Notes under the pieces: model-generated
What the model was told of the DNA's origin: nothing
Database searches by the model: none
What the model saw: only the letters and a program-made list of their open reading frames with translations
Part shown: piece by piece, positions 4,839-60,949 of the stretch
Position numbering within the stretch: position 1 is the first letter of the stretch
How the letters are laid out: the number at the start of each line of letters is the position of its first letter
Position numbers and translations under genes: made by a program
DNA from: Ectocarpus siliculosus
Lineage: Eukaryota; Sar; Phaeophyceae; Ectocarpales; Ectocarpaceae
Direction of reading: 5' to 3'
NCBI GenBank assembly: GCA_000310025.1
Contig: FN648554.1
Coordinates: forward strand, 1 to 64,000
DNA length: 64,000 nt

Positions 4839-7369
4839 AATATGCCAAGTGTTGAAAGTGTTGAAAGTGTTAAAAAATAAAAAATAAAAAGGGGGGCACA
4901 TTTCTGTTGTTGTTGTTGTTGTTGTTGTTAGGTTGTGCGAATCCTCACACCCTCTCGTGCATCTGAGTACGAGCTACACGCGCTTCTCTTTAGAAGACTA
5001 CGATGAAGGTCTGGTCGTACCATACTGGTCGTTCACACTTCGATGTCGGGGGTGCATGTGTACCGTATGCACGTCGGAAAATTTTTCGAAGCCCTCCTTG
5101 GCACGGATCTACATGTGTACATATATGTATTCTGCGGACACTAACAGAATGCGTGCCCACAACAACCAACCATGGCTATGTGGTGTTTCATGTTGCCGCT
5201 CTATTGATAAAGGCCTGCCGCTGTTGCCCGGTCCTCACATCATGGAAGTATGTCATACCTTATTGAGTCAAAAGTCCAACAACAATTCGTGCTACCGCCG
5301 ATTTGTACTTGCACGCTGCTGCACGTTGACTGGTTGCACATGCGCGTTGCTCCACATGTAAAACACACACACACACTGATTGCAATTGCACGTTTCTCCA
5401 CACACACGCCTTCGCTGCTGTGGCACCAACGGTCGGTGTGGACTGCTCGAAACATCATGAATGATTGGTTGCATACATATGTACGTAGCCCGTCCATAGT
5501 TCCCCCATCTGTAGTGGTAGCTGCGGCAACACACACGCACAGCTTGTTGTTGTCCGTGACACCTTCTGGCTGTTACCGCGGTGTGGTCATTTCACCGATG
5601 CCCGCTGCACACTCACATACAGTTGAAGGGTTGTCTACTGGCTGCTAAATTTTATATTCCCACAATACCCTCACCAATACTGAAGCCTTTGAGAAAATAC
5701 TTCGGATGTACTCCCACACGCACCGATGAGGTTGTTAGTCTATGCCTCACCGCTCCGCTGTTGGCTGCTACATTCTGGTGTCCAGCTCTTGTTTGGCTAG
5801 AAATCCCTGCAAGACACGCTGATGTTTGGCCCGCAGCAGACCTTGCCGTTTGCATACGCCGATATGCTTGCGACCGTCGGTAGATTTGTTTGTTAAATAT
5901 CGTTGGCTGTTACACGCCATTGTGTAGCCATCATTGCACAAGCAGTTGCCTCATGACGAAATCCCTGCGAGACACGCCGATGTTTTGCCCGCAGCAGACT
6001 CTGCCTTTAGCATACGCCGATATGCTTGCGACCGTCGGTAGATTTGTTTGTCACAAATGTTGGCTGTTACACGTCTTTGTGTAGCCATCATTTCACAAGC
6101 AGTTGCATCATGACGAAATCCCTGCGAGACACGCCGATGTTTTGCCCGCAGCAGACTCTGCCTATAGCATACGCCGATATGCTTGCGACCGTCGGTAGAT
6201 TTTGTTTGTTACAATTGTTGGCTGTTGTATAGCCATCATTGCACAAGCAGTTGCCTCATGACGAAATCCCTGCGAGACACGCCGATGTTTTGCCCGCAGC
6301 AGACTCTGCCTTAGCATACGCCGATATGCTTGCGACCGTCGGTAGAGTTGTTTGTCACAAAATAAATGTTGGCTGTTACACGCCTTTGTATAGCCATCAT
6401 TGCACAAGCAGTTGCCTCATGACGAAATCCCTGCGAGACACGCCGATGTTTTGCCCGCAGCAGACTCTGCCTTAGCATACGCCGATATGCTTGCGACCGT
6501 CGGTAGATTTGTTTGTCACAAAATAAATGTTGGCTGTTACACGCCATTGTGTAGCCATCATTTCACAAGCAGTTGCCTCATGACGAAATCCCTGCGAGAC
6601 ACGCCGATGTTTTGCCCGCAGCAGACTCTGCCTATAGCATACGCCGATATGCTTGCGACCGTCGGTAGATTTGTTTGTCACAAATGTTGGCTGTTACACG
6701 CCATTGTGTAGCCATCATCGCACAAGCAGTTGCCTCATGACGAAATCCCTGCAAGACACGCCGATGTTTTGCCCGCAGTAGACTCAGCCTTAGCATACGC
6801 CGCTATGCTTGCGACTGTCGGTTGATCTGTTTGGTGTTTTTAACTGCTGTACACAGCCGGATGTGCTTGTCAGCTGCCTTGCCGCTACATTGGTTGGCTG
6901 TTACACCTTCGTCCAGCTATTATTGCGCAAGTGGTTGGCCTCATGACGAAATTTGCGTTGTGTTGGCTGGTACACGCCGTTCGATCGTTCATGTCGGAAA
7001 TGCTGTAGAACCACACGCTGGTGTGGTTTCTTTAGTTAGAGTCCCCCCCTTGGTGGCTGTTACCCACCGTTAAAGGTGACTGCTGCATTTCCACGCGCTG
7101 ATGTGGTTATTCATCGTCTCACAGCTGTTGTCGCTGTGATGAATTGGTGCCGTTGCGGCGCGCCGCTGCCGAGGTCCTGCCGCTACGTCCCATTGGCTGT
7201 ACACGCGTTGTACCACTACGCCATTACAATTACGTCATCGCCGACACCCCCCCCCCCCGTTGCTACTGTAGTTCCAGCAGTACGTCCTCACGGCCCTGCG
7301 CACCTGCCGTAACACCGACGGCCTCTACTCTTGGCCTCATTTTCATCACGCGCTGTTTCAAGCCGCCAA
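4839..7369. other. Non-coding interior of the DIRS-type element
   Basis: About 2.5 kb between ORF1 and the zinc-knuckle ORF. It begins with an AT-rich tract and a (TTG)n microsatellite at 4903-4929, and then reads as unique sequence without a convincing ORF. From 5780 to 6830 it holds a tandem array described separately. 6830-7369 shows degenerate echoes of that array (for example TTGGCTGTTACAC) and a C-run at 7249-7257. Confidence 0.6.
5780..6830. repeat. Seven-copy tandem repeat, period about 147-162 bp
   Basis: ACCGTCGG recurs at 5873, 6031, 6188, 6335, 6496 and 6658, with a variant at 6813. Each unit includes ATGACGAAATCCCTGC, GACACGCCGATGTTTTGCCC and TAGCATACGCCGATATGCTT. The last contains CATACGCCGATATG-like partial dyad symmetry. 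The period varies through small indels at the TTTGTCACAAA segment. The array lies wholly inside the DIRS-type element. Its short frames are not conserved between units. Confidence 0.9.
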
Positions 7370-52168: not shown

Positions 52169-53755
52169 ATGCGCGAAATGCAGACCGGCACCACCCACAA
52201 GGCTGTGTGCCACGGGGATATTCGTGCCTCTGCAGAACTGGCCTTTACATCAGTGTCCCCTGCCCTTGCCTGCCACTTTCCGCACGCCTATCGCATGCGA
52301 GCAGATCGCGTTCGCCTGTTGCGAAAGTCGCAGAAGAATAGCAGTGGCAACTGGGTTTGCACCACGTGCCAGCGCTATTTCGGCTCCGGTGAAGGGCTGA
52401 CCCAGTTTTATGTGAACCAGCACGAGAGGTCGACCGCACACATGTGAGGGCGATGGCGGTCGGTGTCGGTAGATGCATACTCGAGTAATTTGGACTGCTC
52501 GCATGTGCTTGCCAACATTTCAAGACCTCGCAAGACCCGTTACTTTGTCCATCCTCGCTGCACGCATGTCGTGCAAAGTATCAATGCGTGCATGCAGCTT
52601 CGTCGATGTGTGCGAATGCGTCGCCTACTACGCAACTTGACACAGCATGTACAGTAGAACGATTAGATAATTATTCCGTCTCTCAACGGCGGATCAATCA
52701 ATATTTTCTCACATCCGCAGGCGTGGTGCTGAAGCTAAGCGTCAGAGGAATACAATGCTGAGGTTTTTTAAACCGTCGAGCACTACGGGCGGCGGGAAGG
52801 GGTCGAGGGACGTGATGGATAGCAGCGGTGGCGCGAGTAGTGACGTTTGAGGTGGTTACGACGGGAGTTGCAGGCGGGCGTGAGGGCGGAGCAGGCGCGG
52901 GTAGCGACGCTGAGGTGGTTGCGACGGGAATTGCAGACGGGGGTGAAGGCGGAGCGGGGGCAAGCAGTGACGTTGAGGTGCTCTCGACGGGAGATGCAGG
53001 CGGGCGTGAGGGCGGAACGGGCACGGGTAGCGATGGTGAGGAGGTTGCGACGGGAGTTGTGAACGGGTGTCAGGGTTGTGAGGGCGCGAGCAGCGAAATG
53101 GATGGAGTTTTCTCCGATGCTGCACACGAGAGTGGTTCGACCGATACGGTGCGCGTCCAAAACCCTCTCCGCTGCGCGGGATTGCGTCCGAATGTTCGGG
53201 GGCCTCTTCTCCAACACTACCCAGCAGCTTTGCATGGTGTCGTCAAAAACGGGCTGTCGTGGGAGGCTCGCACAGACCCGAATGGCGTGGCTCTTTCCGC
53301 CGTGGAATCCGTCTCCCGCGGCATCCTGAGCCCAGGTTGTGCTGGAGCAGAGAAGAACCAGGAGGCACGTGCGAGCCGTGTGTGGACATCAAGGGCAGTA
53401 AGGTTTACAGAGGTGAGACCACGTAGCGAACAAAAACGCGAAATAGGAAGGCAAGACAATGTAACTGTCGTACCCTAATCCAATTAAAATAATTGGATTG
53501 TTCCCTCTGCACCCCTTCCGTCTTGGAGCAGATCTGGTTCAACGATCATCGTTGGAGCCAGAAGACTCAAGGTTGAAGCACCTTGCTCTAGATTTGTTGA
53601 CTCCTCACCAGCAACGAGGCAGGCTGACACGGTGGAAGAAGAAGTTCGAAGTGCAGAAACTGTACACTTTGAACCAACTCAGGAAGTGCGCGGCTTTGCA
53701 TGCTGGTGTTGCACTCGCGAAGAGTATCTTCATTTACATGGCAGACAATGACTGA
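52169..53755 (+). CDS. Possible zinc-finger protein gene with 21-residue repeats, unknown function
   Basis: Three open pieces that may be exons of one gene. The first (52169-52444) ends with a zinc finger, WVCTTCQRYFGSGEG to QHERSTAHM, spaced C-X2-C-X17-H-X5-H. A second region starts at about 52715 with RRRGAEAKRQRNTMLRFFKP, which has a nuclear-localisation character. It leads to four 63-bp tandem units (about 52842-53093) coding a 21-residue Gly/Glu/Ala-rich repeat such as VVATGIADGGEGGAGASSD. The frame then gives CAGLRPNVRGPLLQHYPAAL and WEARTDPNGVALSAVES before a stop at 53478. A last frame (53498-53755) includes RLTRWKKKFEVQKLYTLNQL. The first 63-bp unit is 64 bp long (one extra T), which shifts the frame. 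Sequencing error, decay or a mis-modelled intron are all possible. It could be a transposon gene. Confidence 0.4.
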
Positions 53756-54368: not shown

Positions 54369-54420
54369 GTTGATATACTCACAGGATGGTCGTCGTGACG
54401 TGATACATTTCTTGTTATTA
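54369..54420 (+). repeat. Repeat R, copy 3, left fragment
   Basis: First 52 bases of repeat R, ending CTTGTTATTA. It resumes at 58780 with TAGTATGGAAAG after the pogo-like transposon. Copy 1 reads CTTGTCATTAGCATGG at the same place, so copy 1 is the empty site with a single TA. Confidence 0.9.
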
Positions 54421-54870
54421 CCGTAGGTTGCATAAGATACCACACCCGTGTGATAACATTTTCGGGAGGGCGAAAGTTATCACACGGGTGTGGTATTCTG
54501 TAGGGGGTGTGATATCTTATGTCACCCGTGTGATAAAGTGTTCTCACAGAGTCTCACCAACAGGGGGTGTGATAACAAGGGGGTGTGATACCGTCGCCCG
54601 TGTGATGAAGCGCGCTCACAGGACCCGGCTTACAGGGGGTGTGATAACAAGGGGGTGTGATAACTTCGCTCGTGTGATGATACGCGCTCACAGGACCCGG
54701 CCTGACGGGGGTGTGATAACGTCGCCCGTGTGGTTGCAGTGCGCCCACAAGACCCTACCTACGGGGGTGTGATAATAATGTCGCTCGAGTGATGCGGTGC
54801 GCTTACAGGAGGCACCCACGTACAAAGGGCGTCAAGGGGTGTAAACAGGTGTGATAGCTAGGATGGCTCA
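54421..54870. repeat. Left TIR and subterminal GTGTGATA repeats of the pogo-like element
   Basis: The terminal repeat is followed by at least twelve copies of GTGTGATA or its complement, often as GGGGGTGTGATAAC or CCCGTGTGATAA. They alternate with GCGCTCACAGGACCCGGC-type words. Opposed pairs such as TTATCACACGGGTGTGGTAT form short palindromes. A matching set lies at 58570-58779. Confidence 0.88.
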
Positions 54871-55239
54871 CACCACTCCATCACGTAAATGCTTTCCCAC
54901 GTGCATTTTCGCAGTATCCTTTGGAAATTCTTCGCATAGGTACACAACGAAGACGTAGAACCGACACCTCAGAGCGGTTGTGCCGGTGTTGTGTGCGACA
55001 AAACGACAGCACACAGGTACCTGGACGACGCAACCACTTGCAAGACTTGCATCCAACACTCAAGCTGGAACCACATAGGACGCAAGCAAGTGCCAGCTAC
55101 GTATCAACCAAAGCTAGAAACCAAGAGGACAAGCGACTACCGAAACATATGAAACCCAGGACAAATTGGCTCGAATAGCAGCTTTGGTTGACTTGACCAT
55201 GGCATGCAACTACGGTAGGTAGATACCAGACAAGACACC

Positions 55240-58200
55240 TCAGTCTATGCAAACAACGTCCGCCCCCGGCAAGTCTGCCATGACCTCAACCTCCGAGTCA
55301 TCGTTGCCTTCGCCATCTCCCGAGCTGTCATCGTCGTCGATTTCCAACACCTCCAACAAGTCGGCCATCGTCTCCCCCTCCTCCGATGGGCCAGCCTCCT
55401 CCACGCCGGCAGCGGCCGCATCGCCGTCTGCACGAAGTGGTTTCCCTTGGGCGTCGGAGTTGAGCTCCTTGTTGGCCCACGCCTCGTCCTCAGATCCATC
55501 GAAGGCAAGGGTCATGCCAGCCTTCCTCCAGCTCGAACGGATGCTCTCAGGGTCCACTTCATCCCACGCTTTCTTCACCCACTGCGCGAGCAATCCCCTC
55601 GATGGGGGATCCGGGTAGCCGCGGTCGTTGCGCACGGCGTCGGTGGAGGCCATGTGGTCATCGTAGAGCCTGGAAATGTTGGACTTGAACAGCTTGTTGA
55701 TAAGTCCATCGCAAGGCTGGATCTTGGGCGTTAGGCCTCCGGGGACAAAAAACAGCGTCGTGTTGGACTTATCCATCGCTTCCTTGCACAGGGCTGTCTT
55801 GTGCACGGTGTAATCGTCCCACGATAGCAGCGTGTCCGGCTGACGGTAGTTGCCCAGGACCCCCTCGCGACCCGGGCGCCGGTTCCACACTTGGGGGAGC
55901 CAAACATCCCTGAAGACGCGCTGCGTGTGCCACGCCTTGTCGTCCACGGCGTACACAACGCTCTGAGGGTATACTACCCCCTTCTTGTCCTTGCCCACCT
56001 TGAACTCTCGTTCGATGCTGTTGGCAGCGGGGGGTTTGCCCGGCGCCGTAGGCTTACCCTTGAAGATGAGCAGCGGCGGGAGTTTGCCGCCCTTCATGTT
56101 TGCTGCAAGCACGGCAGTGATCCGCAACTTTTCCTTTCCACCGGTTCTGATGGCCACCTCTTTCTGACCGGTGTGCTGCGAACGACAAAAATAAGAAGCA
56201 AAAAACAATAGAGAAAGCAGAGGCGACGAAAAAGGTCGATTTTGTAGATGAGAATGACAGCTCTTCACGCACAAAGTAACGTATGGGTTTTGCAGTACAG
56301 CGATGATGGATGCGAATGGTAAGAAACTTCTAACCCGGCATAAGCACAACACCAACGTCGTCTAGCCTTACTGGCTGGACACTGAGTAGGTACGGCAAGA
56401 AATATTGCATCACAATGCCCACTGTTTGCACGGAATGCCAAGAAACGACCAGACAGGCACATGACTCGAAGCAACACTATTGAACTCACCGCCACGGTCG
56501 ACGTGCCAGCGGGCTCCATCCACACAGCAGTTTCATCCATGCTGTAGCTCTGCTCCTCCTTGAACAACAGAGGTGGCTTCGAAGGCGCACTGCTCGTTGC
56601 CCCCCCCATGCTCCGTCCTCCCCCACCGTCGATTCCTCCGTGACGAAGCGCCCTCCATTCCTTGACGGCTTTCATGGCAATCGCAGGCCACCCGGAAGGG
56701 AGTTTCTGGCCTTGCCTGGTAACCGCCCGGAATGACAACCGGTTCTTCCTAAGGAACCTCCTGCACCAGTGAGTCTGCTTGTTGCGGTACTTTCTACTGC
56801 CCTCCAGGTCGTTCGCTGCAGGCCTCGGGCCGAACCAAAGCGAGTTGAGCGATACCGCCTTGTTCTTGATCATCCTTGTAGAGACGCGGGCAGAGATGGC
56901 TTCCGAACGAACATCGTTGATCCAGTCGAGAAGTTCGAGCTCGGCCTCAGCGTTTGACCTAACCCTCACCCTGTTGAACGACTTCACGCTCCGGGCTTTT
57001 TTCTTCCGTTTGGCCCCGAGCTGGTCTGCCTGTTCCAGCTGCTTCTCGTACTTTGTTCTGTCTTTTATCCACGCCGAGAGTGTGATCTTCTAGGGAATCC
57101 CAAGCACTCGTTGCGCATACGACACACCGATGGTTCCATTAGGCCCCTGCGCCCCCGGGCTTTGCATGGTCGCGTACTTAATGGCGTTTACTTTGAATTC
57201 CAAATCGTACCGCTTGCGTTTCTGGCCACCACCAAACTTAATGGGGAAGTTTGGTGGCTCCAATTCCAGCGGCTCTCTTTTCCTCTTGCCCTTGCCCTTG
57301 CCCTCGGCCGGCGTGCCGTCGAGACGCCCACCGAAACCATCTGTCCACTCCTCTGACTCTCCAGGAAACATGGCGTCACCGACGGGCGCCGCTGCGGCTG
57401 CTGTCGTCGGTGCTTCAGGCAGGTGCACGTTCCTGAAAAGCGCATGAGTTCGAGGAAGCAACAAAACATGTAGCATACGTGTCGTTAAGTGCAGTATCTG
57501 TAACAATGCGCTCGCTCCAACGACCATCAGGCAAACGTACCAAAAATACGATGGCTAGCGGATAGCTCTGACAACGGCCACCAGGTTGAGAGTCATGGCG
57601 TCCACGCATGCAAGGTACAGAGGGTGAGCAGCTGACGGCACCTATTTCGTATCTCACACAAACAGGCACGAACTGCTGTCGAGGTTATGTGTACATATTT
57701 GCACGTGTTGGGTATGGGTTTCGCAGTCTTCCTACCGAAACATCACAAACACAAAAAACGGTATGCGGAAACGTGTCGTGTGTGTGACAAAAACAATCCA
57801 GTAAACATTTCGCCCACACCAGAATATATGAACTACATGTAAATGTAGTGTGTACATGCCAATGTGCAGTGAGGCGAGCGCGACGACACGACGTCAAAAT
57901 TATTTTTCGATCTGGTTATCGATCAGGCAATCAGGCGTGGCATGTTCTTTGGTTTGCTTGAGCCATGAGAATCCTCACAAACACCCATGTGCTGCAAACT
58001 GCAAGACGCTCTGCGCACACCTTATTTTGATGTAGACGTCGCCAGACTTCGCATGCCTGCCGCAAAACTCCGGCATATCCTTCCCTGGCTCTGCCCACAA
58101 GGGCTTGTTGGTGCACGATGGTTCTCCGCAGCGCGGTGCTGCTGCAGGATTCTCAGCAGTAGCCGCGCTCAGGGTGTTGGTGGTTGGCGGGAGAGCTGCC

Positions 58201-58536
58201 TTTTCGGGTGTGGGTGTGGGTGCTGCGGGATTCTCAGCAGTAGGTTCTGCTTCGCAGGTTTCGGCGGCACCCGCGGTGGCAGGCGCAGCCGGTGCTGTGG
58301 GAGTCTCAGTAGCAGTAGATTCTTTTGAGCGGGCCTCAGCAGTGCGTGCGGTGTCATGTGCGGCTGCTGAGTGAGGGAGTCGTCCGAGCAGCCCCACGTT
58401 CCCACGGGGCGGGTGGAAAGTAGGACGCTATGGAGCGTGGGGCCTCCGCTGGGGTCTTACCCACTGCAGTCTGAGCCGCGGGGCTTTCAGCAGGGTTCCT
58501 AACTGCACCACCCTCCACGACATTGTCCGCCTCCAT
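55240..58536 (-). CDS. Pogo-like transposase with N-terminal EsV-1-7 domain; one in-frame stop
   Basis: Catalyses cut-and-paste transposition by DDD chemistry. Four minus-strand exons: 58536-58461, 58366-58021, 57432-56490 and 56175-55240. The introns use GTAAGA, GTGTGC and GTGAGT donors with CAG acceptors, and frames are kept across all of them (766 codons). Residues 105-135 match EsV-1-7: C-X4-C-X16-C-X2-H ([17 protein letters not shown]). About 222-267 is a Psq-like HTH ([30 protein letters not shown]). About 298-385 is a CENP-B/Tc5-like HTH ([17 protein letters not shown]). The catalytic domain has MDETAVW (Asp 440), [12 protein letters not shown] (Asp 575/576) and [16 protein letters not shown] (Asp 611). 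Codon 255 (57092-57090) is TAG inside the Psq HTH with the frame open on both sides, so this copy is probably a fresh pseudogene. The EsV-1-7 region could belong to a separate gene, but the splice phase fits one protein. Confidence 0.82.
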
Positions 58537-58569
58537 GGCTCTTGCGAGCAGGTGGTGTGGTCGTGATCT

Positions 58570-58779
58570 CTGTCCTCACGTTGTCACACCGTGTGATAAG
58601 CAGGGGCTCCGTCGATTTAATGCGGCCCAACTTCAGGGGGTGTGGTATCTTATGTCACCGTGTGATAAAATGACGTTTTTTGGGGGGCTGAAAAAAAAAG
58701 CACACGGGTGTGGTATTGTGTACGTTTTCTGAGGGGGTGTGGTATCTAATGAAAGTGTGATACCTTATGCAACCTACGG
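58570..58779. repeat. Right TIR and subterminal GTGTGATA repeats of the pogo-like element
   Basis: At least seven copies of GTGTGATA/GTGTGGTAT, including CACCGTGTGATAA, AGGGGGTGTGGTATC and the terminal GTGTGATACCTTATGC. They mirror the left end. The transposase ATG (58536) lies just inside. Confidence 0.88.
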
Positions 58780-59600
58780 TAGTATGGAAAGAAAAAAAAA
58801 TGGCTCGATTTTTGAATTTCTACAACAGCAGTATGGACCAGACGCCGACTGTACGTAGAAGTCGTACGAGTGTCGACTTAGTTGTGCTGTCACGGCATCT
58901 TCCATGCACTTCTGCCAGTGCTGATTTGTTGATTGGAGTCTTGTAGGTCGAGATACAGCCTTGAGATTCTCGGGTTGTGGGGGCAAAAGTGAACCAGAGC
59001 AAAAACTTGCATGCATAGCTCGATTACTGCTGTATTTTTGCTACAGCAGTATGGACCAGACGCCCACTGTACACAGAAGTCGTACGAGTGTCGACTTAGT
59101 TGTGCTGTCACGGCATCTTCTATGCACTTCTGCCGGTGCTGATTTGTTGATTGGAGTCTTGTAGGTCGAGATACAGCCTTGAGATTCTCGGGTTGTGGAG
59201 GCAAAAGTGAACCAGAGCAAAAAATTGCATGCATAGCGCGATTACTGCTGTATTTTTGCTACAGCAGTATGGACTAGCCGCCGAACGACGTCCGCGTACT
59301 ACGGCAACGACCTAACTGGATGGGATACTTCCTGCCATGGCGAATCATAGTACAATGCGATGCAAACATCCGTTCGTGTGTCGCGCGCCTGCCCCATGTG
59401 TCGACGACAGGTACACGCAGAGCTCTCGCCATGTTGTCGTTTCCGTGCTACAACGACACCAGTACTACTGTACATAGATATCGTAGGAGAGTAGAGTTGT
59501 GCTGTCACGGCATCTTCCACGCACGCTCCTACCGGTGCTTGCGTCGATTGGAGTCTTGTAGGCCGAAAGACAAGAGTGTGTTGGGTTCCCGGGTTGGTTG
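58780..59600 (+). repeat. Repeat R, copy 3, right fragment with a duplicated first half
   Basis: Resumes at TAGTATGGAAAG. The first half (GATTTTTG to CAGAGCAAAAA) is present twice in tandem (about 58800-59030 and 59035-59260), which the other copies do not show. The second half follows and ends near GAAAGACAAGAGTGTGTTGGG. Confidence 0.88.
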
Positions 59601-59809
59601 TGGAAGGAAACCTGCCTGCAACAACAGAGGATGCGGTGTTTTCTTATTATTATCCCGCTCAACTTTTGTTTTTTTTTTGCGACATGGTCGCATTCTTCTT
59701 TTGACGCTGCCGAGAAGACCGCTGTATCTTTACGCAGTCCAACTTTCGCATTTACCATTTCACACCGAACGACGCAGGACGGGTCGACCTTCATCATGCC
59801 CACCTTGGA
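59601..59809. repeat. Shared tail of repeat R
   Basis: Matches 48003-48200 after copy 1: GGAAACCTGCCTGCAACAAC, a T-run, GACGCTGCCGA-type sequence and CGCAGGACGGGTCGACCTTC. The R family therefore includes this tail, which makes the full unit about 900 bp. Confidence 0.75.
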
Positions 59810-60420
59810 CTTTCGTATCGACCAGACGCCGACTGTACATAGTCGTACGAGTGTGGAATTATCTGTGTTGTGACGGCATCTTCCACGCACCCACTCCTCC
59901 TACCCGTCCGTGCTGGTGCGTCGATGAGAGTCTTGTACGTCGGGATACCGCAGTGCAATTCTCGGGTTCCTTATGGAAGCAAGTTTTCCTGAAACGACAG
60001 AAAAAAATTGTGTGCATGCATACATATATATATGTAGATAGCTCGATCACTGTTTTTGCTTCACAGCAGTGTGGAGCAGACGCCGAACGTCGTCCGCCTA
60101 TTACGGCGGGCAACGACCATGACTGGATGGGATACCTCCTGCGACGGCGAGCCATACTACTATTTTTACTATGCGATGCAAACATCCGTTCTCGTGTTGT
60201 GCGCCTGTCACATGTCCACCTACAGGTAGGTACACGCAGACCTCCCGCTTTCCTGCCGCGCAAAGGCTCTCCTCGGGGACCTTCCACATCGTACATACTA
60301 CTGTGGTATTACTGTCGAGTTACTTTCGTCACGGCAGCTTCCACGCACACTCTCCTACCGGTGCTTGTGTGTCGATTGGAGTCTTGTGAGTCGATATAAA
60401 GCAGTCGGATTCTCGGGTTG
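59810..60420 (+). repeat. Dispersed repeat R, copy 4
   Basis: A more diverged copy (GACCAGACGCCGACTGTACA; GTCTTGTACGTCGGGATACC; CACATGTCCACCTACAGGTA; GATTGGAGTCTTGTGAGTCG). It includes an (ATATAT) stretch at 60025-60036. Confidence 0.8.
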
Positions 60421-60949
60421 TGGGAGCAAAAGTCTGCCTCAACAACATGTTCCAGTTTATCCCACTTGACGAGTTTAAATTCTAAATGAGTGTTTTTTCG
60501 GACTAAACACCAAGTATCAATTTCAGATTGGCATTTTTCTTCGACACCGCCGGAGACCCGTGGATCTTGAGGAAGTCCATCTTCCCCTTTTTATGCTTAC
60601 GATTTTACCCCGGAGACGCAGGAAAGCTCCAACTTGATCATGCCCGCCTTCTCCATCTTTTAAGGGGACTTCCTCGAAATATTCCGTTTCTATATATACA
60701 TTCCATTGCGTCGGGTCCATACATTTCATCTTTGGTAGACCTGTACACGGACGGACGGGCGACAACATTGCGTTATAGTACGACATTTTCCCCCTTGCGT
60801 TTCCTTCTCCTATCCTTCTTTGCGTACCACATGTGTGTCATTGATCGTCGTCGGCCTCCTCGATACTTGCTTGTGGATTACCTGCTAGAAATGCTGGGAA
60901 TCCCTTCATTCCGAGAGAGTCATAGGTCGGCATCCGGCCTATTCTTTTT
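60421..60949. other. Unrecognised spacer
   Basis: About 530 bp between repeat R and the foldback-like element. A plus-strand frame of 150 codons (60528-60980) runs into the terminal repeat and has no family motifs. I see nothing else. Confidence 0.4.

Follow-up and report, generated by a model that had tools for sequence, protein, structure and literature searches.

A pogo-like transposase with an N-terminal EsV-1-7 domain in a decayed TcMar-2-like transposon copy of Ectocarpus

In a window of 64,000 nucleotides from contig FN648554.1 of Ectocarpus siliculosus (assembly GCA_000310025.1) we identified a DNA transposon copy on the minus strand (54419-58781; 4,363 bp counting the TA at both ends) which encodes an EsV-1-7 domain N-terminal to a pogo-like transposase. 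It is almost certainly a decayed copy of TcMar-2_Ec32, a 4.4 kb autonomous Mariner-Tc1 element of Ectocarpus sp. 7 whose transposase has an N-terminal EsV-1-7 domain and which was published in 2025 (PMC12477816); the match is to extracts of the published description and not to a sequence. By those extracts the two agree in size, in the N-terminal domain and in the presence of a short MITE with the same ends; a 4-bp insertion and a stop codon interrupt the gene in the window copy. The fusion of EsV-1-7 domain and transposase is already known from the same source, contrary to the initial annotation, which was aware of no described case. The present analysis extends that description with particulars of the gene structure, the relatives of the element and the possible origin of its domain. 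We hold with good confidence the joint reading that this decayed TcMar-2_Ec32 copy carries a derived, captured EsV-1-7 unit which would act as an accessory zinc-binding module.

Element boundaries and target site

The limits of the element were set by an exact terminal match, an end-to-end alignment of copies and an element-free site. The exact inverted match, TACCGTAGGTTGCATAAG, is 18 bp long with outer limits at 58781 and 54419, and forms the 5' terminal inverted repeat at 58764-58781 (minus strand, its first TA being the target site) and the 3' repeat at 54419-54436 (plus strand). The inverted ends had been noted before as a 25-bp repeat, a length that is reached only with mismatches. In the end-to-end alignment every one of the 18 copies begins with TACCGTAGG, and 17 close with CCTACGGTA; the last two bases at the 3' end of copy L016 are not TA, while the other 17 of the 18 have TA at both ends. 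When the flanks of the window element were joined at the TA and used as query, all 40 scored matches (the best 40 of 344 candidates) spanned the junction, and an element-free site on C94, inspected base by base, was continuous with a single TA. From the uninterrupted junction matches and the single TA at the empty site it follows that 54419-58781 moved as a whole unit into a repeat. That repeat (54374-54418 and 58782-60500 around the element) is of high copy number, its junction region recurring at no fewer than 40 other places, and a 218-bp tandem unit lies within it at 58825-59282. Elsewhere in the window, 52830-53093 is a GC-rich tandem repeat of 63/126 bp.

The 21-base element end has 91 exact matches in the genome, and two pairs inspected among these delimit MITEs, one of 221 bp and one of 222 bp, that have the ends of TcMar-2. 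The published MITE relative TcMar-N1 is given as 217 bp in the extracts of PMC12477816; with two TA added this would make 221 bp, in agreement with the shorter of the two. The window element has 19 boxes of the form GTGTG[AG]TA, six within 190 bp of its start and 13 within the final 440 bp, the latter forming a 3' subterminal array at 54419-54856 (minus strand). These boxes were considered as a target of the EsV-1-7 domain and rejected, since arrays are also present in two sister elements that lack the domain (16 boxes in the sister on C6, 13 of them in its last 900 bp, and seven in that on C10). A variant box, CGTGTGATA, occurs five times in the window element and in neither of the two sisters (5 vs 0 vs 0), too small a count to build on. 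The TA target-site duplication, the terminal inverted repeats and the DDE_1 core with its triad of Asp residues place the element in the pogo-like part of Tc1/mariner.

Gene structure and transposase

The transposase gene is on the minus strand and is best read as three exons with two introns, both predicted from the reading frames. Exon 1 (58021-58536) is a single exon and not two. A 4-bp insertion near 58370 shifts its frame in the window copy and is absent from all 17 other aligned copies, and in 10 of the 18 copies a single uninterrupted frame of 185-187 aa extends from the start codon across the domain. The eight in which exon 1 is not open are the window copy, L021 (early stop), L023 (rearranged) and L028-L032 (frame changes). 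Because the insertion is private to the window copy and the frame is open in 10 of 18, the first intron of the initial annotation is not real; its three junctions reduce to two introns, the junction at 58461/58366 being an artefact of the insertion. Intron 1 (57433-58020, phase 2) would run from AAATAAG/GTGTGC to TTTTCAG/GAACG, followed by exon 2 (56490-57432), a putative intron 2 (56176-56489) and exon 3 (55240-56175). An in-frame TAG at 57092-57090 is likewise absent from 17 of 17 other copies. With a frameshift and a premature stop the window copy does not qualify as a working element.

Under the two-intron model four of the 18 copies are uninterrupted to the natural end, giving proteins of 778-796 aa. 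One of these four has lost the last His of its domain, and in one the exact string MDETA was not found. String search found the triad D-134-D-35-D in three of them and PRSIAS[FY]F at residue 33 in all four. In the window copy this last motif (PRSIASYF, 58417-58440, minus strand) may be read as a PIP-like motif with the canonical first Gln missing. Exon 2 carries the first catalytic Asp (MDET) and an HTH_Tnp_Tc5-like region that stays below cut-off (17.4-17.8 bits vs 22.2 in the middle part of the protein), and exon 3 carries the DDE_1 core (70 bits vs a cut-off of 22 in a profile search of 56175-55240) with the second and third Asp, 35 residues between them. A profile search of the transposase gave no match to Psq families at E up to 1. 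The initial annotation was right in placing the domain N-terminal to a pogo-like transposase of the Tc1/mariner superfamily with a DDD core, inside an element with terminal inverted repeats, as the DDE_1 score and an order kept in 18 copies bear out. Pogo and Tigger have in common with the window element a DDE_1 nuclease with three Asp and a TA target, and a PIP-box is reported for pogo, Tigger and Lemi1 in the extracts of PMC5371812. The window element differs from pogo and Tigger in the added EsV-1-7 domain, in a PIP-like motif without the first Gln and in an HTH match below cut-off.

The EsV-1-7 domain

The spacing C-X4-C-X16-C-X2-H is encoded on the minus strand of the window as a 26-residue stretch within exon 1, and the frame 58427-57975 holds the complete four-ligand unit. 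The domain region (58021-58142, 41 residues) matched Pfam PF19114 (EsV_1_7_cys) at 36.3 bits (E 5.1e-9, curated cut-off 25) in a profile search of window exon 1. In a comparison set of 62 hand-picked EsV-1-7 repeats from 12 host loci the X16 spacing was present in 60 of 62. The profile score and the constancy of X16 among host repeats show that the domain is more than a chance spacing, and we regard the EsV-1-7 domain in the window as genuine; the exact spacing and minus-strand position had been recognized correctly at the outset. AlphaFold produced a poor model of the lone domain from single-sequence input (mean pLDDT 51.7), and a search of solved structures returned no relative, the best matches being at E 0.26 or worse.

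According to the literature extracts consulted, the EsV-1-7 domain is expanded in brown algae and forms part of the developmental regulator IMM, its function being termed unknown or hypothetical; PMC12629598 counts 90 EsV-1-7 proteins in Ectocarpus, hypothesised to be zinc-finger transcription factors, and the extracts of PMC7457493 and PMC12993054 present the IMM work with no mention of a transposon with the domain. Zinc binding is a hypothesis for the EsV-1-7 family as a whole. The transposase has the same C-X4-C-X16-C-X2-H unit and PF19114 match as the EsV-1-7 proteins (IMM, the approximately 90 Ectocarpus proteins and gene 7 of the giant virus EsV-1). The host EsV-1-7 loci inspected are mostly tandem units, whereas the transposase has a single divergent unit.

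Copies in the genome

The search of the species' own genome covered 189 Mb in 492 contigs, with the best 150 of 402 candidates scored. A 55-aa query of the domain exon was found at 19 places, 14 of them at 95%-100% identity (the window included) and five split by a frame change. The end-to-end alignment comprises 18 copies and leaves out L027, whose 5' end is rearranged, and L033, which is 5'-truncated and begins at element position 2985, past the domain. Exon 1 of L023 contains an inverted duplication and does not align properly, so that the variant counts for this exon are too high. All 18 aligned copies have the same domain order. A search for other copies with the same interior had been proposed at the outset, together with the possibility that every other copy would lack the domain; the 18 copies agree and the domain exon is present at 19 places. 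The mean pairwise difference across the 18 copies is 1.7% (0.2% to 2.9%), so the TcMar-2 family is young. Among these copies the domain has three synonymous and four non-synonymous variant codons, which gives no support for selection.

Five copies, L028-L032, have two common 1-bp deletions inside the domain which break the frame, and L029-L032 have in addition a 2-bp insertion upstream. The 15-base flanks differ among the five, so that copies with a broken N-terminal exon have been mobilised. Exons 2 and 3 are open (625 aa) in two of them. Mobilisation in trans is common among DNA transposons, and the pattern fits movement in trans or by a transposase without the domain exon; a dispensable domain fits it too. 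L028-L032 have the appearance of a sub-burst of elements whose N-terminal exon is broken.

Sister elements and fragment L038

Seven places in the genome encode a nuclease 67%-69% identical to that of TcMar-2, one of them in two pieces. Four of the seven were inspected (C43, C76, C10 and C6; C75, C1 and C23:3467 were left out); their transposase is 66%-68% identical, and each has a homologous exon 2 preceded by a different N-terminal exon. No C-X4-C...C-X2-H motif was found in six frames of these four. As the motif pattern is loose, giving the domain and two unrelated matches in the positive control L020, absence was also checked with Pfam, and the two types of sister N-terminal exon gave no PF19114 match. 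A PIP-like stretch, ITSFF, is present in the sister N-terminal exon. Two sister elements could be bounded, at 5,448 and 5,040 bp. The sisters share with TcMar-2 a TACCGTA start and, in the two elements compared, subterminal TATCACAC/CACACCCC boxes; they differ from it in their greater length, in their N-terminal exon and in that no EsV-1-7 domain was found (four of seven inspected). A more distant relative on C94 had no motif and no Pfam match in its N-terminal frame. Pieces on C9, C56 and C63 match the element only from positions 1138, 1373 and 1279 on, that is past the domain, and say little on polarity (C63 also has end repeats). Upstream of the piece on C56 a single stretch resembled the domain, at no more than chance level (E 0.60, 38%).

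A further fragment, L038 (C43:269740-270430), is the 5' part of a third TcMar-like subfamily and has a degenerate EsV-1-7 domain in which the second Cys is lost and the PF19114 score (21.7 bits) falls under the cut-off of 25. The TcMar-2 and L038 domains are 72% identical at the protein level, with dN 0.23 and dS 0.69 over 37 codons (dN/dS about 0.33), and of the exon 1 pieces that still align between them the domain is the longest (141 bp at 80%). No transposase match was found downstream of L038 in the pieces inspected to 274700. The simplest reading of these sequences is that the domain was gained before the TcMar-2 and L038 types diverged; loss in the sisters is the less likely course.

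Host repeats and origin of the domain

When the transposon domain was compared with the 62 host repeats the median identity was 36%, whereas the host repeats compared with one another gave 55%. The genome holds at least 150 other EsV-1-7 repeats over the PF19114 cut-off. No close host donor was found among the 62 host repeats or among the best 150 of 402 genome candidates; once the transposon copies, L038 and a match of 18 aa on C10 are set aside, those best 150 contain no match above 49% identity. In viral contigs no relative of the nuclease was confirmed, and a 42-aa domain query, short for the confirmation step, gave 73 pattern matches there with none confirmed. Phage records, which represent phages and not algal viruses, gave no match.

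The predicted donor of intron 1, AAATAAG/GTGTGC in phase 2, coincides with the place where the Arg-Cys of a next repeat would begin. In the host gene L055 (C24:907470-908060) AAAAG/GTAAGC closes one repeat and the next follows CAG/GTGC, so that a phase-2 intron appears to lie at an Arg-Cys boundary. L055 has apparently one EsV-1-7 unit per exon, and its first unit has CGEP and AEPG in common with the transposon domain. The string AGGTG is present at the repeat junction in 38 of the 62 host repeats. These junctions, with one host gene as thin support, suggest that the repeat boundary itself can act as a splice donor upon capture of one unit.

Discussion

We propose that the element is a TA-inserting, TIR-bounded cut-and-paste transposon of the pogo-like branch of Tc1/mariner, in which uninterrupted copies would express a three-exon gene as a transposase of about 796 aa. 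The predicted protein would begin with a low-complexity N-terminus that includes the PIP-like motif; a single EsV-1-7 domain would follow, then a Tc5/CENP-B-like region and last a DD35D nuclease. One EsV-1-7 unit may have been captured at a repeat boundary where the Arg-Cys codons supplied a ready splice donor. The domain would then serve as a predicted zinc-binding accessory module, in contact with nucleic acid or protein, which modulates the transposase, while the element ends would be recognized by the DNA-binding part common to the domain-less sisters. We regard gain of the domain rather than its loss as probable from the sequences compared, and give the accessory role an even chance. That the captured unit with its AG/GTGY donor ties the transposase to the DNA or partners of IMM-type life-cycle regulators, so that transposition follows the life cycle, is a highly speculative extension.

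An EsV-1-7 exon ancestral to this transposase group, which the sister subfamily would have lost or exchanged for another, is unlikely. It would draw on the presence of the domain in two subfamilies, TcMar-2 and L038, which makes it older than the TcMar-2 burst, and on a polarity that rests on one more distant relative (C94); the N-terminal exons of the inspected sisters (four of seven) however differ in sequence, and although they have a comparable PIP-like stretch they show nothing of the domain, and the C94 relative itself has neither motif nor Pfam match. Capture is also better in keeping with the data than the converse, that the transposon seeded the host EsV-1-7 family, which we consider barely credible: the domain does sit on a mobile element in a genome with at least 150 other repeats over cut-off, but it is an outlier to the host repeat set, and the low identity of all matches other than the transposon copies, L038 and the short C10 match (among the best 150 of 402) leaves the route for spreading the domain put forward in the initial annotation unsupported.

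It might be argued that exon 1 is an independent gene within the element, reading on to a stop at 57975 as a stand-alone EsV-1-7 protein, as unspliced it yields a complete protein of 185-187 aa in 10 of 18 copies and L038 stays in frame beyond the donor with similar residues. A donor and an acceptor of matching phase nevertheless connect exon 1 to the transposase, the whole joined frame is open in four of 18 copies, the sister N-terminal exon precedes a homologous exon 2, and the extracts of PMC12477816 describe one transposase; we judge a separate gene very improbable. Harder to set aside is a domain that plays no part in transposition and is carried as a passenger, which we still regard as unlikely. 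The five broken-domain copies at differently flanked sites, the sisters without the domain and the lack of a purifying signal among TcMar-2 copies speak for it. Spread of broken copies is nonetheless expected where mobilisation in trans is common, and no piece of exon 1 aligns over a greater length between TcMar-2 and L038 than the domain, which is 72% identical with a dN/dS of about 0.33 on 37 codons.

A probably captured domain with a possible accessory role remains our preferred reading. A transposase with one EsV-1-7 unit offers a small, assayable setting for this domain, in which its presence or absence can be compared for the effect on DNA binding and transposition, and the domain-less sister elements of the same genome provide natural controls for its function.
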